This document shows positions 2,545-36,903 of a DNA stretch of 37,511 bases, piece after piece (the first letter of the stretch is position 1; every line of letters begins with the position of its first letter). The notes under the pieces are model-generated. The model saw only the letters and a program-made list of their open reading frames with translations. It did not search any database and had not been told where the DNA came from. Location of the stretch: positions 1-37,511 of the forward strand of contig CAKZXY010000081.1 of assembly GCA_937883945.1 (NCBI GenBank), given 5' to 3'. This stretch comes from an uncultured Clavibacter sp. Its GTDB lineage: Bacteria; Actinomycetota; Actinomycetes; Nanopelagicales; Nanopelagicaceae. Both the position numbers and the translations under genes were made by a program.

Positions 2545-3672
2545 ATGAACAAGAAATCATTACGCGCTGTAGTTGGCATCGTGCTAGCACTAGCGCTATC
2601 TTCAAATTTTGTAATCGCTCAAGCAGCAACTAAGAAGCCTGCAAAAGCTCAATCTGCCGCAGATGTTGGTGGATTGAAAGAACTAATCAAACTTGCCAAA
2701 AAAGAGGGCGAGTTAAATACCATTGCTCTTCCTGATTACTGGGCAAATTATGGCAATGTAATCAAGCGCTTCTCTGAGAAGTATGGAATTAAGGTAAATT
2801 CCTATGATCCAGAGGCTAGCTCCGCTGAGGAATTAGTGGCAGTTCGCACCCTTAAGGGTCAAGATCGTATGCCAGATGTCTTGGACGTAGGTCTGCAATT
2901 TGCAGTGCAGGGCGCTCAAGAAGGACTTCTTGCTCCCTATAAAGTCATTGGCTGGAAAGATATTCCAGATGCAGCTAAAGATGCTAAGGGTCTCTGGTAT
3001 TCAGATTACGGCGGATATATCGCAATTGGCTATGACGCCAATCTAATCAAGACTCCACCAAAGTCTTTTTCAGATCTTCTAAACCCAATCTATAAGAATC
3101 AAGTGGCGCTCAATGGCGACCCTACTGCTTCCAACTCAGCATTCCTCTCAGTAATGGCAACATCCGTCGCTGCAGGTGCAGGAGTAAAAGGCGCCAATAA
3201 CATCAATTTCGCTCTTGATTACTGGAAGCAGATGAAAGCTTCCGGCAATTTCGTTCCAGTTGCAGCGACTCCGGCCACTGTGGCAGCAGGTCAAACCCCA
3301 ATACTCCTAGATTGGGATTACCTACATGCTAAGTACAAGGACCAATCAGGCAAGGTTGATTGGAAAGTCGTTGTTCCATCAGATGGTTTGCTCGGTGGGT
3401 TCTATGCACAAGCTATCGTAAAGAACTCTCCACATCCTGCCGCAGCTCGTTTGTGGCAAGAGTTCCTATATAGCGATGAAGGTCAGAACTTGTGGTTGCA
3501 GGGAGGCGCTCGTCCGATTCGCCTTGATGCAATGGTGAAAGCCAATACCCACGATAAAACTGCCTACGCGCTATTGCCAGCTACGCCAAAGAACGCAAAG
3601 CCGATCTTCCCATCCTTGCAGCAACAACTACTAGCCAAAGCTCTCCTCACTCCCGCTTGGCCAAAGTTGTAA
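2545..3672 (+). CDS. ABC transporter substrate-binding protein (family 1 type)
   Basis: Secreted solute-binding component of an ABC importer, 375 aa. I chose ATG 2545 rather than the upstream TTG at 2515 because TAGGAG lies 4 nt before it and it gives a proper Sec signal peptide: MNKK, a hydrophobic core, then a likely cleavage after AQA near residue 27. There is no lipobox cysteine. The mature part has the periplasmic-binding-protein type 2 pattern, ending in the conserved AARLWQEFLYSDEGQ stretch typical of the AfuA/FbpA/phosphonate-type group. It is first in an operon with two permeases, an ATPase and a metallophosphoesterase. The last gene hints at a phosphorus-containing ligand (inference); iron, polyamine or another organic ligand cannot be excluded. 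A stable stem-loop follows the stop codon. Confidence 0.88.
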   Translation: MNKKSLRAVVGIVLALALSSNFVIAQAATKKPAKAQSAADVGGLKELIKLAKKEGELNTIALPDYWANYGNVIKRFSEKYGIKVNSYDPEASSAEELVAVRTLKGQDRMPDVLDVGLQFAVQGAQEGLLAPYKVIGWKDIPDAAKDAKGLWYSDYGGYIAIGYDANLIKTPPKSFSDLLNPIYKNQVALNGDPTASNSAFLSVMATSVAAGAGVKGANNINFALDYWKQMKASGNFVPVAATPATVAAGQTPILLDWDYLHAKYKDQSGKVDWKVVVPSDGLLGGFYAQAIVKNSPHPAAARLWQEFLYSDEGQNLWLQGGARPIRLDAMVKANTHDKTAYALLPATPKNAKPIFPSLQQQLLAKALLTPAWPKL

Positions 3673-3692
3673 CACTGCTAGAAAACGTTTGA

Positions 3693-3729
3693 GTAGCGGA
3701 AGTTGGTTCGAGGGTCCAACTTTCGCTAC
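3693..3729 (+). promoter_or_regulatory. Strong stem-loop between binding-protein and permease genes
   Basis: GTAGCGGAAGTTGG (3693-3706) pairs with CCAACTTTCGCTAC (3716-3729): 14 bp including one G-U, with a 9-nt loop. No U-tract follows, so it does not look like an efficient intrinsic terminator. Its position suggests a 3'-end stabiliser or processing barrier that keeps binding-protein mRNA more abundant than permease mRNA (inference from known ABC operons). Confidence 0.75.
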
Positions 3730-3774
3730 ACAAATGCTCTTGCAAGTCTGCTAAACAAAATGAAGGGTTGTTAA

Positions 3775-4617
3775 ATGTTTAAAAGAGCGGGGCTAATCGG
3801 CTTAGCCCCGCTTCTTATTTATATGGCAATTTTCTTAGGATTGCCCCTAACTGCAATTTTTAGATTTTCATTTCTAAATTCAGAAAATGAGTTCACATTA
3901 GATAACTTTGCCACAATTAGTAGTGGAATCTATCGGGATGGCTTCATCTTAAGCTCGCAATTATCCTTTGTTTCAGCTGCCCTTTCGCTATTTTTCGGCT
4001 TCCTCTTTGCCTATGCCTTGGCCACCTCCAAATGGATTTATTTGAGAAAGTTGGTCTCTACAGCTTCGGGAGTGCTAGCAAATACAGGTGGAGTCCCTCT
4101 AGCCTTTATGTTTATTGCAGTCCTTGGAACCTATGGAGCCCTTACTACTTTCTTAAAGAATCTGGGGGTAGATATATATGGGGGGAGCTGGACGCTCTAT
4201 TCTTTTTCTGGCTTGTTAATTGTCTATCTCTACTTCCAAGTTCCTCTAATGGTTCTAATCTGTCTGCCAATATTGGAAAATATCAGAGTTGAGTGGCGAG
4301 ATGCAGCCTCATCACTTGGTGCAAGTAACGCTACTTATTGGCGTAAGGTTCTTATCCCAATTCTGACTCCACAGCTATTAGGTTTCTTTCTTCTTCTCTT
4401 TGCTAATTCTTTTGCTGCTTATGCCACAGCAGCAGCTCTAACTAGTGGCTCTCTTGCACTAGTGCCAGTACAGATTGCATCTTTAATCAGCTCAAATGTT
4501 CAGGTAGATGGAGCTAATACAGCGATGGCCCTTGGACTTGGCATGGTGATCTTGGTTGGAATATCAACTATTGGTTATGCCTTATTGGAGAAGAGGACTT
4601 CACAGTGGCGGCGATAA
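3775..4617 (+). CDS. ABC transporter permease, first subunit
   Basis: Integral membrane subunit of the importer, 280 aa, with about six hydrophobic segments beginning at residue 9. The EAA-type cytoplasmic loop is visible as the RDAASSLGASNATYWRKV and LIPILTPQ stretch around residues 175-200; this loop contacts the ATPase. ATG 3775 is supported by GAAGGG at 3762-3767, 7 nt upstream, and gives a positively charged N-terminus (MFKR) ahead of TM1. The gene's 3' end overlaps the next permease by 13 nt, implying coupling. Codons 4-13 form a perfect 11-bp inverted repeat, described separately. If translation began instead at Met17 (ATG 3823), that hairpin would lie in the leader, but TM1 would then be cut. 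Confidence 0.9.
   Translation: MFKRAGLIGLAPLLIYMAIFLGLPLTAIFRFSFLNSENEFTLDNFATISSGIYRDGFILSSQLSFVSAALSLFFGFLFAYALATSKWIYLRKLVSTASGVLANTGGVPLAFMFIAVLGTYGALTTFLKNLGVDIYGGSWTLYSFSGLLIVYLYFQVPLMVLICLPILENIRVEWRDAASSLGASNATYWRKVLIPILTPQLLGFFLLLFANSFAAYATAAALTSGSLALVPVQIASLISSNVQVDGANTAMALGLGMVILVGISTIGYALLEKRTSQWRR
3786..3812 (+). promoter_or_regulatory. Terminator-like hairpin inside the first codons of the permease gene
   Basis: AGCGGGGCTAA (3786-3796) and TTAGCCCCGCT (3802-3812) form a perfect 11-bp stem with seven G-C pairs around a 5-nt loop, followed by TCTTATTTAT. It spans codons 4-13 of the permease. In RNA it could pause or terminate transcription, or hinder initiating ribosomes. It is the second hairpin in 120 nt at this junction. 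Confidence 0.7.
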
Positions 4618-5387
4618 AACTAATTAGTGGCGTATTTAGAGCTGTAATAATCTTCATAGGCATCTCATTTTTTATGATTCCAGTTTTTGCAGCTTCCAAT
4701 TTTGCCTTTGAAGATGGCAAGGGTGGATATACGGCAGATCCAATAAGAAGCGCAGCTGGAAATGAAGAATTGATGCAATCTCTCTTGCTTACTCTACAGA
4801 TAGCTTTTGGCACGGTGTTATTGACGCTACTTTTGCTCATTCCAACAGTTGCGTATCTACACCTTGTCATTCCTGGGGCACGTGCATGGGTGGAATTCCT
4901 GACACTAACGCCATTAGTGATTCCGCCCATTGTGCAGGCAGTTGGATTCCTCTATTCAATGCCCACCTGGCTCAAATCAACTCCAAATTCACTAATTTTT
5001 GCCTATGTGATTCTGGCCCTGCCCTTTAGTTATAGAGCCCTTGATGCAGCTTTTGCCACCATAGATGCTCGCACTTTATATGACGCTTCTCGTTCACTGG
5101 GGGCAAGTTTTACCGCAGCGATTCGAAAAGTTTTGATTCCCAATGTTTCAACAGGAATTTATGGTGCAATCTTTTTGACAATCGCTCTGGTTCTTGGTGA
5201 ATTTGCTTACGCCTCTCTTCTTCTTTGGGACACTTTCCCTACAGAGCTAGCCGTTGCAGGGAGCTCTAATGCATCAGTAGCAGTTGCACTATCAGTTCTT
5301 AGCTTGCTTGGTGTCTGGTTAATTCTGATTGGTATAAATCTCTTTAATCGAAAGAGCAAAACATTAATAATTGCAGGAGCTAAATAG
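4605..5387 (+). CDS. ABC transporter permease, second subunit
   Basis: Second membrane subunit, 260 aa, with about six transmembrane segments. The EAA-loop signature is visible near residues 160-185 (LYDASRSLGASFTAAIRKV, then LIPN). The start is GTG 4605, inside the end of the preceding permease, with GGAGAAGAGG at 4588-4597 serving as its ribosome binding site. The 13-nt overlap points to translational coupling and equal production of the heterodimer. The stop TAG is followed at once by the Shine-Dalgarno of the ATPase gene. No sequence feature tells the substrate. Confidence 0.9.
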   Translation: MAAIKLISGVFRAVIIFIGISFFMIPVFAASNFAFEDGKGGYTADPIRSAAGNEELMQSLLLTLQIAFGTVLLTLLLLIPTVAYLHLVIPGARAWVEFLTLTPLVIPPIVQAVGFLYSMPTWLKSTPNSLIFAYVILALPFSYRALDAAFATIDARTLYDASRSLGASFTAAIRKVLIPNVSTGIYGAIFLTIALVLGEFAYASLLLWDTFPTELAVAGSSNASVAVALSVLSLLGVWLILIGINLFNRKSKTLIIAGAK

Positions 5388-34519: not shown

Positions 34520-35959
34520 ATGAAGCATATGAATGCAAAAGCATTCAAAGCACTAATTGCGTTAGCTTTCGCAATTAGCGCGACAGTTGTGCCAATTTCC
34601 CAGAGCTTCGCCGCTGGCGAATCTTTAGGAAAGGCATGCCCAACTGAAGGTGTATCGACAGGAACGAAATCCACTTCGCTCATCTGCGTTAAGGCAGATA
34701 ATGGAAAGCAGACTTGGCAACGAGTCAAGCTAGCTTCATCAAGTGGACGTCCAGTTGCTAACCTAACTCCACCAAAAGGTGAAATTGAATTCTGGCACTA
34801 TCGCGTAGAGCTTGCTGATCAGCGCGCTCTTGTGAAGATCATTTCAGATTTCGAAGCGAAATATCCTGGCACCAAAATTAAGCAGGTAGTTCGTGACACC
34901 ACCACCTATAACGCCACTGCGCGTGTAGCAATCCTTGCTAACCCAAAGGCTGCTTTATTTGCAACTTCACGTGGATTCGTATTTAACGATTTCGCAAAGA
35001 GTGACATGATGCTAGATCTTTCAGCTCAGCGATATGTCAAGCAGAATGTAGTTGCTAAGGGTCTAGTTGCCGGTCAATATGAAGGCAAACAACTTGGAAT
35101 TCCTTATCAATATCTCTTCAATAACCCAATCGTTAATACAGACATTTGGGCAAAAGAGAAGTGGACAACTCCTAAGAATCTTTCAGGATGGGTCGCTTGG
35201 TGTAAGGATGCCAAGGCAAAGGGATATGTCCCTCTAGCTTGGCCAGGAGCAACTCGTGGACAGGCAGCGCAGATTTCAAACTCTGCATTGATGAACTCCG
35301 CAGGAAGCTACGCAGAACTTGAGAAGAATCTTGCTGATCTAAACTCAGGCAAGATTGATCTGACTTCAACCTGGTTTAAAGGTGTTGCAGATATCTATGT
35401 CAAGCTACGTGATGCTGGCTGCTTCCCACCAAATGCAACAGGTGTAACTGAAGCTGCCGCATATAACCTCTTTGCAACTGGCAAGTCACCAATTCTTCCA
35501 ATTGGAACATTTGCTATGGGTTCTATCAAGGGCCTAAACCCAGCACTCAATGGAAAGATGGAACTACTTTCCATGATTCTTACTGATGGCAAAGTTGTCG
35601 CTGAAGGTATTATGAACAATACCTACACCTTCAGTGTTAACAAGAACTCAAATACTCGCGATCAGAAGATTGCTAATGCATTCTTGTCATATCTATTAAC
35701 TGGCAAGGTTGCTGAACTCTATGCAAATGAGACTCTGCAGCACGTCAACGTTCTTGATGTTGAATACAAAGACGTTAACTTGCTAAATACCGTCTCATTC
35801 CAGGCAAAGAACACGATGTTGGCACCACGCTTCTTGCTCCTTAACGGCGCAGTGAGCGATCTGACTCAAGATGCCCTCATCCAAATCGTCGGTGGCAAGA
35901 GCCCTGATGATGTTCTGCCTGACTTCTCAAGGCAGATCAAGCAGAAACTAGCGGGCTGA
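34520..35959 (+). CDS. Carbohydrate ABC transporter substrate-binding protein with N-terminal Cys-pair module
   Basis: Secreted family-1 (MalE/UgpB-like) binding protein, 479 aa. ATG 34520 is fixed by AAGGAG at 34508-34513. A Sec signal peptide (MKHMNAKAFK plus hydrophobic core) ends near SFA-AGE (30-33). There is no lipobox. Residues 35-70 carry a small module with C40, C56 and W66 (GKAC...LIC...W) ahead of the ligand-binding part, which starts at about 78 (KGEIEFWHY). Such a disulfide-capable module could anchor the protein at the cell surface (inference). It is followed by a strong stem-loop and two permease genes, and preceded by sugar-metabolism enzymes. Confidence 0.9.
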   Translation: MKHMNAKAFKALIALAFAISATVVPISQSFAAGESLGKACPTEGVSTGTKSTSLICVKADNGKQTWQRVKLASSSGRPVANLTPPKGEIEFWHYRVELADQRALVKIISDFEAKYPGTKIKQVVRDTTTYNATARVAILANPKAALFATSRGFVFNDFAKSDMMLDLSAQRYVKQNVVAKGLVAGQYEGKQLGIPYQYLFNNPIVNTDIWAKEKWTTPKNLSGWVAWCKDAKAKGYVPLAWPGATRGQAAQISNSALMNSAGSYAELEKNLADLNSGKIDLTSTWFKGVADIYVKLRDAGCFPPNATGVTEAAAYNLFATGKSPILPIGTFAMGSIKGLNPALNGKMELLSMILTDGKVVAEGIMNNTYTFSVNKNSNTRDQKIANAFLSYLLTGKVAELYANETLQHVNVLDVEYKDVNLLNTVSFQAKNTMLAPRFLLLNGAVSDLTQDALIQIVGGKSPDDVLPDFSRQIKQKLAG

Positions 35960-35981
35960 TTAGCTCAATAGCTAACTCCGG

Positions 35982-36010
35982 GACCGCTCTGACTAAAGGT
36001 CAGAGCGGTC
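35982..36010 (+). promoter_or_regulatory. Strong stem-loop between binding-protein and permease genes (second operon)
   Basis: GACCGCTCTGAC (35982-35993) and GTCAGAGCGGTC (35999-36010) form a perfect 12-bp stem with a 5-nt loop (TAAAG). No U-tract follows (TTCGGGCTGC). It starts 22 nt after the binding-protein stop codon, placed like the hairpins in the first ABC operon. Confidence 0.78.
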
Positions 36011-36060
36011 TTCGGGCTGCTCCAAAGAAGCGTAAGAGAGATGCTGGTATCTATTATTTA

Positions 36061-36903
36061 ATGGGCCTTCCAGCCGCCCTTATTTTCTCGATTTTTTACT
36101 TCATACCATTTCTTGCCAACCTGCGTTACTCCCTGACTAAATGGGATCGCATTACAGAACCAGAATTTGTTGGTCTGCGAAACTTTGTAAATTTGTTAAC
36201 TAATGATGACCTTTTCTATAAGGTACTTGGAAATAATCTCCGCTTTACTTTCTTAGTTGTATTGTTTCAAACGCTATTTTCTTTAATCTTTGCTCTCTTT
36301 CTAGTTAAAAACAGTAGAGTAAATGTGGCGCTTCGCACTCTCTTTTTCTTTCCCACGATCCTCTCCTCGATCTCAGTAGGAATGATCTGGCTATTTATGT
36401 ATGATCCAAATTTTGGCGCGGTAAATCTCTTCTTTACACGTATTGGCCTTGAGCAATTTGCTCTCAATTGGCTAGGCAGTGAGAGCTCTGCGCTCTATTC
36501 CATTGCTTTTACCCAAGTCTGGTTTCATACCGGGCAGATGATGGTTATCTATATCGCAGGTCTGCAGCAGATTCCTCAAGAACTCTATGAAGCAGCCGAG
36601 ATGGATGGCGCCTCTAGATGGCAGCAATTCCGCAATGTCACCTGGCCCATGTCAATCCCAACAACCATTGTGGTGATGGCTTACACCACAATTCAGAGTT
36701 TTAGAGCTTTTGATTTGATCTTTGCCATGACTCAAGGTGGTCCAAATAGCTCTTCTAATATATTTGCGGTTTTGATTTATCAGACTCTCTTTAATGAGCT
36801 TCGAATTGGATATGCCGCTGCGCAATCAATTTTCTTCATCTTGCTTCTGGTTTTTGTCACGGTCCTACAGCGTAAATTCCTCAATAGTCGGTATGAGAAA
36901 TAG
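36061..36903 (+). CDS. Carbohydrate ABC transporter permease, MalF/UgpA-like (start uncertain)
   Basis: First membrane subunit of the sugar importer, at least 280 aa, with six hydrophobic segments and the EAA loop ELYEAAEMDGASRWQQFRNVTWP near residues 177-199. ATG 36061 is the first standard start in frame, but it lies right at TM1 and has no good ribosome binding site. The same frame is open upstream back into the binding-protein gene and encodes KKRKRDAGIYYL just before Met36061, exactly the cationic N-terminus expected for this family. The real start may therefore be a non-standard codon upstream, near the stem-loop. Followed 7 nt later by the second permease. Confidence 0.85.
   Translation: MGLPAALIFSIFYFIPFLANLRYSLTKWDRITEPEFVGLRNFVNLLTNDDLFYKVLGNNLRFTFLVVLFQTLFSLIFALFLVKNSRVNVALRTLFFFPTILSSISVGMIWLFMYDPNFGAVNLFFTRIGLEQFALNWLGSESSALYSIAFTQVWFHTGQMMVIYIAGLQQIPQELYEAAEMDGASRWQQFRNVTWPMSIPTTIVVMAYTTIQSFRAFDLIFAMTQGGPNSSSNIFAVLIYQTLFNELRIGYAAAQSIFFILLLVFVTVLQRKFLNSRYEK

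Follow-up and report, generated by a model that had tools for sequence, protein, structure and literature searches.

A predicted hairpin within the first codons of a permease gene and its counterparts at binding protein-permease junctions of Actinomycetota

Introduction

Binding proteins are generally required in excess of their translocators and, to our knowledge, the elements known to arrange this excess are intergenic. In Ruminiclostridium cellulolyticum, intergenic stem-loops located 3' of the substrate-binding protein (SBP) genes, whose GC stems are long and whose U tracts are poor, terminate part of the transcription, and the SBP-to-translocator ratio is constant (PMC9045158). In E. coli, the structure located between malE and malF protects and stabilises malE mRNA (PMC5927463). 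We describe here an SBP-permease junction in the window, i.e. the whole stretch of 37,511 nucleotides of DNA that was analysed, where a hairpin is embedded in the translated start of the permease gene.

Results

The operon consists, on the + strand, of an SBP_bac_6 substrate-binding protein gene (2545-3672), which is found 5' of both hairpins described below, a first permease gene (BPD_transp_1, 3775-4617, with ATG 3775 as start), a second permease gene (4605-5387), an ATPase gene extending to 6447 and a gene for a TIGR03767-type metallophosphoesterase. As for the transported substrate, the 2-aminoethylphosphonate, polyamine, sulfate and thiamine models all score below their own cut-offs. In terms of placement, a stem-loop stands between the SBP gene (2545-3672) and the translocator genes, the first of which is the permease 3775-4617.

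An earlier, sequence-only reading had described an 11-bp perfect inverted repeat with a 5-nt loop in codons 4-13 of this permease, followed by a tail, and its sequence and coordinates are correct. Indeed, the coding hairpin (3786-3812, + strand) reads AGCGGGGCTAA-TCGGC-TTAGCCCCGCT and is followed by the U-rich tail TCTTATTTAT (3813-3822, + strand), within the ORF 3775-4617, the first stem base being located 11 nt past the ATG. G3785 and T3813 add one wobble pair to the stem, which has 7 GC among its 11 perfect pairs, so that a long GC-rich stem precedes a low-U tract; the U tract is interrupted. The RNA of 3770-3830 folds at -23.8 kcal/mol (z -4.0), a stability reached by 0 of 200 shuffles, and among 20,000 synonymous versions of codons 1-18 only 10 fold equally well, a p-value which by itself would not be remarkable across the 812 genes of the scan described below. 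The stem is built on rare codons (GCG, GGG and CCG represent 0.12, 0.11 and 0.10 of their families) and is also translated, into ordinary TM1 residues of the permease.

The alternative start at Met17 (3823) that had been suggested, which would make the hairpin an ordinary leader terminator, is scarcely credible. Its ATG does follow immediately 3' of the U-rich tail, but the TM1 residues G9 and P12, located 5' of Met17, are invariant across nine homologues while Met17 itself varies, and an SD-like GAAGGG (3762-3767, + strand, retained in the nearest relative L032) is found ahead of 3775 and none ahead of 3823.

A second hairpin, stronger and better conserved than the coding one and overlooked in the sequence-only reading, occupies the noncoding space between the SBP and permease genes (3686-3736, + strand). 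In this structure CGTTTG / GTAGCGGAAGTTGG pairs with CCAACTTTCGCTAC / CAAATG, giving 20 pairs with one A.A mismatch at about -32 kcal/mol, without a U tail. The stretch is nearly identical in the window and L032, the sole stem change converting a G-U pair into an A-U pair. In L033-L037, hairpins of differing sequence are found in the same place; hence the position is conserved across L032-L037 while the sequence changes, and the alignment of the divergent upstream hairpins is too poor for counting pairs. The loop (window 3707-3715, and the same-genus loci L036 and L037) keeps TTCGAGGGT or TTTGAGGGT while the stem sequence varies. Being intercistronic and at the 3' end of the SBP gene, as at malE, the hairpin 3686-3736 is an established kind of SBP/permease element.

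The coding hairpin was then set against the genome, of which 0.98 Mb of the 1.18-Mb draft was scanned (contigs other than C122-C125, without the stretches past 20 kb). The number of perfect stems of at least 11 bp inside ORFs is ordinary (2 observed against 1.35 in synonymous shuffles), and by start-folding energy alone the permease 3775 ranks only 7th of 812 genes. What is unusual is the position at a gene start rather than the stem count: 2 such stems are found in the first 45 nt of ORFs where 0.067 are expected. Likewise, two terminator-like sites, defined as a stem of at least 8 plus a U-rich tail, lie within the first 60 nt of the 812 CDS, against 0.16 expected from gene bodies, the 617 kb of which contain 2; synonymous shuffles give a mean of 0.34 at gene starts and reach 2 in 3 out of 100 cases. 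A consensus terminator scan yielded 7 sites with 8.0 expected and therefore has no discriminating power. A perfect stem without a U tail was also seen at the start of a topoisomerase-like gene (L189).

In L032 (92% identical; permease DNA 81% identical) the coding hairpin is kept. Codons 6-12 are unchanged, a seven-codon run with one other equivalent in the permease gene, and codons 13-15 are each altered synonymously; the tail of this version is poorer and there is a bulge of two bases. The hairpin is absent from L033-L037, whose permeases are 65-78% identical, so carriers of this exact hairpin are two species only, and a family-wide DNA search returned no further copy at any permease start. 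Given its presence in L032, its absence from L033-L037 and the lack of another start copy, this individual hairpin is young in evolutionary terms. The expectation that homologues would keep the stem is borne out in L032 and fails past the two species, where the stem is absent.

DNA matches in G010 and G023:C50 lie within a phosphomannomutase-like gene, as inferred from its sequence, and are unrelated. L259 (G079:C41:7007-7063) contains a noncoding hairpin, flanked by a + strand gene and a rhodopsin-like gene convergent with it, which matches window 3763-3821 at 80% identity; the window hairpin is therefore similar to what is probably a genuine terminator in this family. In L036 (1423-1489) and L037 (2992-3058), the permease SD and start codon are enclosed in a long stem, AGGCAACGATGAAGC...GCTTTCATCGTTGCTT, of about -30 kcal/mol, which from its sequence appears to be a translational-block arrangement replacing the codon 4-13 hairpin.

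We next examined homologues of the permease as a class. Outside the small clade to which the window belongs, the hairpin of the SBP-permease junction sits 3' of a permease start codon in most of them. Starts were called mechanically, as the first in-frame ATG, GTG or TTG past the SBP stop, and for this reason the hairpin may be noncoding in part of the loci, particularly GC-rich ones; the safe loci are those with one possible start only. In L121 and L124-L126, the SBP stop is followed by an AAAGGAA-type SD-like spacer, an ATG, GAGGGAGGCGCG...CGCGCCTTCCTC and then GCTTCTTTTA or similar, with no second start codon between that ATG and TM1. Three pairs of this stem are changed on both sides, including a series A-U, G-U, G-C, a result matched by 5 of 500 shuffles. 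Over 86 non-redundant loci, of which six belong to the clade of the window, the first 36 codons have a mean z of -2.77 against synonymous shuffles of their own gene (43% at -3 or below), compared to -0.18 (0.4% at -3 or below) for 258 interior control windows. Furthermore, among 37 loci the SBP-permease gap can be read through in the permease frame in 26, compared to 5 and 11 in the two remaining frames, a control which supports embedded hairpins in a suggestive rather than decisive manner. Several of the embedded stems carry U-rich tails on their 3' side.

A similar arrangement is found in other operons, where the distance from the ATG to the beginning of the stem varies, with a median of 27 nt. 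The genome's strongest gene-start fold (L233:1879-1930, G000:C98) belongs to another permease, separated from an SBP-like gene by a 14-nt gap. This sugar-type permease, identified by position, PF00528 match and sequence, is unrelated to the one of the window. Its stem, in the first 14 codons and encoding RRRR, is kept in all 10 full-length loci (L314-L323). In L333 (G002) the gene falls into two separate matches, but its hairpin DNA is likewise intact. The spacer 5' of the hairpin has diverged while 11 of 11 pairs are intact on seven distinct sequences; two pairs are changed on both sides, as matched by 41 of 500 shuffles.

The window itself contains a second SBP-permease junction with a hairpin (35982-36010, + strand), the SBP gene ending at 35959. 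For orthologues of the permease near 36013 (L330, L332 and L338), an ATG is followed by GCTGGCGC...GCGCCAGC or ACTGGCGCC...GGCGCCAGT within the first 13 codons. In the window (35960-36061), no stop codon interrupts the permease frame between the SBP stop and the end of the hairpin, and the first ATG, GTG or TTG is found only at 36061, inside TM1, a junction which L331 and L334 resemble; translation may begin at an unusual codon, such as an ATT that overlaps with the stop of the SBP gene (TGATT).

Beyond transport, truA, which comes immediately after rplQ, has CCCACTCTC...GAGAGTGGG and a T-rich tail just past its start in 43 of 49 loci from two genera by a strict pattern (L245:7665-7712, G000:C110; L264-L282 and L284-L313). 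This hairpin of 9 to 12 bp, located inside the first codons, has one fully compensated pair and looks, from its sequence, like the terminator of the ribosomal-protein operon written into the next gene. At all such sites, a gene that would be expected to be highly expressed precedes one that is presumably needed less.

Discussion

What is observed is the hairpin with its place, how rarely such structures occur at gene starts, and that the class is conserved and shows covariation. For the coding hairpin of the window, we favour, with a probability of about 0.52, a step-down element inside the permease's first codons, acting as a leaky terminator and/or an mRNA 3' stabiliser. We infer termination, trimming and an effect on the SBP-to-permease ratio for the window's hairpins as follows. 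RNA polymerase leaving the SBP gene would transcribe the coding hairpin and its U-rich tail, and a fraction of the polymerases would be released past 3813 by leaky intrinsic termination. The ends made there or further 3' would be trimmed back to the coding hairpin or to the hairpin 3686-3736, which, being stable, would shield the SBP message. Binding protein would thereby be kept in an approximately constant excess over the permeases and the ATPase. The place and tail of the hairpin, the enrichment at gene starts, the rare codons, the run of codons unchanged in L032, the other junctions, the z-scores of permease starts, the similar noncoding hairpin of G079 and the clostridial and malE precedents are all consistent with this reading. 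The restriction of the hairpin to two species, the second run of seven unchanged codons in the gene, the interrupted U tract, the poorer tail and the bulge in L032 and the possibility that the noncoding hairpin suffices by itself argue against it.

The last point leads to an explanation that we consider rather unlikely, in which the coding hairpin arose by chance from the choice of codons and the ratio is set by the hairpin 3686-3736 alone. Indeed, the number of perfect stems of at least 11 bp in ORFs matches synonymous shuffles (2 against 1.35), the permease is just 7th of 812 by start folding, the coding hairpin is missing from L033-L037, and the hairpin whose position is conserved is the upstream one. 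Chance, however, fits poorly with the start position, the U tail and the recurrence as a class, and with the retention of the hairpin in L032. A translational effect, in which the stem hinders 30S loading or early elongation and so gives less permease, and via that affects message stability, without any termination, is a live rival since the stem begins 11 nt past the ATG; we nevertheless regard it as quite improbable. The stem folds at about -23 kcal/mol, the expected initiation footprint overlaps it, and L036 and L037, without the codon hairpin, place SD and ATG in the stem of about -30 kcal/mol, which could be another route to the same end. A purely translational role would, on the other hand, leave the U-rich tails of several embedded stems without a part to play, and stems elsewhere start at a median of 27 nt from the ATG, beyond the usual footprint.

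With regard to the step-down reading, the proposal that coding sequence sets the SBP-to-permease ratio holds up at the level of the class, through the other junctions, most homologues and the compensatory changes, while this particular copy is unproven and absent in L033-L037. As a class, coding sequence doubling as a ratio element appears well supported in its structure and evolution, as distinct from function. Regulated attenuation, which had also been suggested, finds no support: no competing antiterminator fold was seen in 3660-3840, an Rfam search gave no match to a known RNA family, and the clostridial ratio is constant (PMC9045158).

More broadly, it is possible, and we put it forward tentatively, that in Actinomycetota the SBP-to-permease ratio is widely set by hairpins in the permease's translated first codons, the stem sequence turning over while the fold stays and the N-terminal peptide being shaped by RNA; the window would then combine an older noncoding hairpin with a newly arisen coding one. 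Should such elements frequently be coding in actinobacteria, a search of intergenic regions would overlook them, start codons would be prone to annotation too far downstream, and RNA, instead of protein function, would account for the variable N-terminal extensions of these permeases. The coding hairpin would be a compact dual-code element.

A literature search for SBP hairpins inside coding sequence, which covered few subscription papers, yielded only the clostridial paper. The element kind is already known, and what appears to be new is its location within translated codons. The clostridial internal terminators (Wu et al. 2022, PMC9045158) are likewise single stem-loops after an SBP gene, with a long GC-rich stem and a poor U tract that pairs with upstream A residues, and the gene pair and expected effect are alike. 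They occupy, however, intergenic regions longer than 50 bp and were tested by Northern blot and reporters, whereas the one of the window is predicted and lies in permease codons. The stem 3786-3812 is not intergenic, while the separate hairpin 3686-3736 is; being within codons 4-13, the former is therefore a variant and not a member of the clostridial class. The differential decay of the malE-malF operon (Dar and Sorek 2018, PMC5927463) also involves a stable RNA structure at an SBP-permease boundary, to which the tail-less hairpin 3686-3736 fits, but the E. coli structure is intergenic, protective after processing and non-terminating, whereas the coding hairpin has a U tail. Premature RNA 3' ends within 5' UTRs and coding sequences, some of the latter made by intrinsic termination, have been reported in E. 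coli as well (Adams et al. 2021, PMC7815308); those ORF-internal ends are mostly attributed to processing or Rho and concern individual genes, whereas the hairpin described here recurs at one functional junction type. By analogy, the window would thus contain a pair in which the coding hairpin has the clostridial profile and the hairpin 3686-3736 that of malE.
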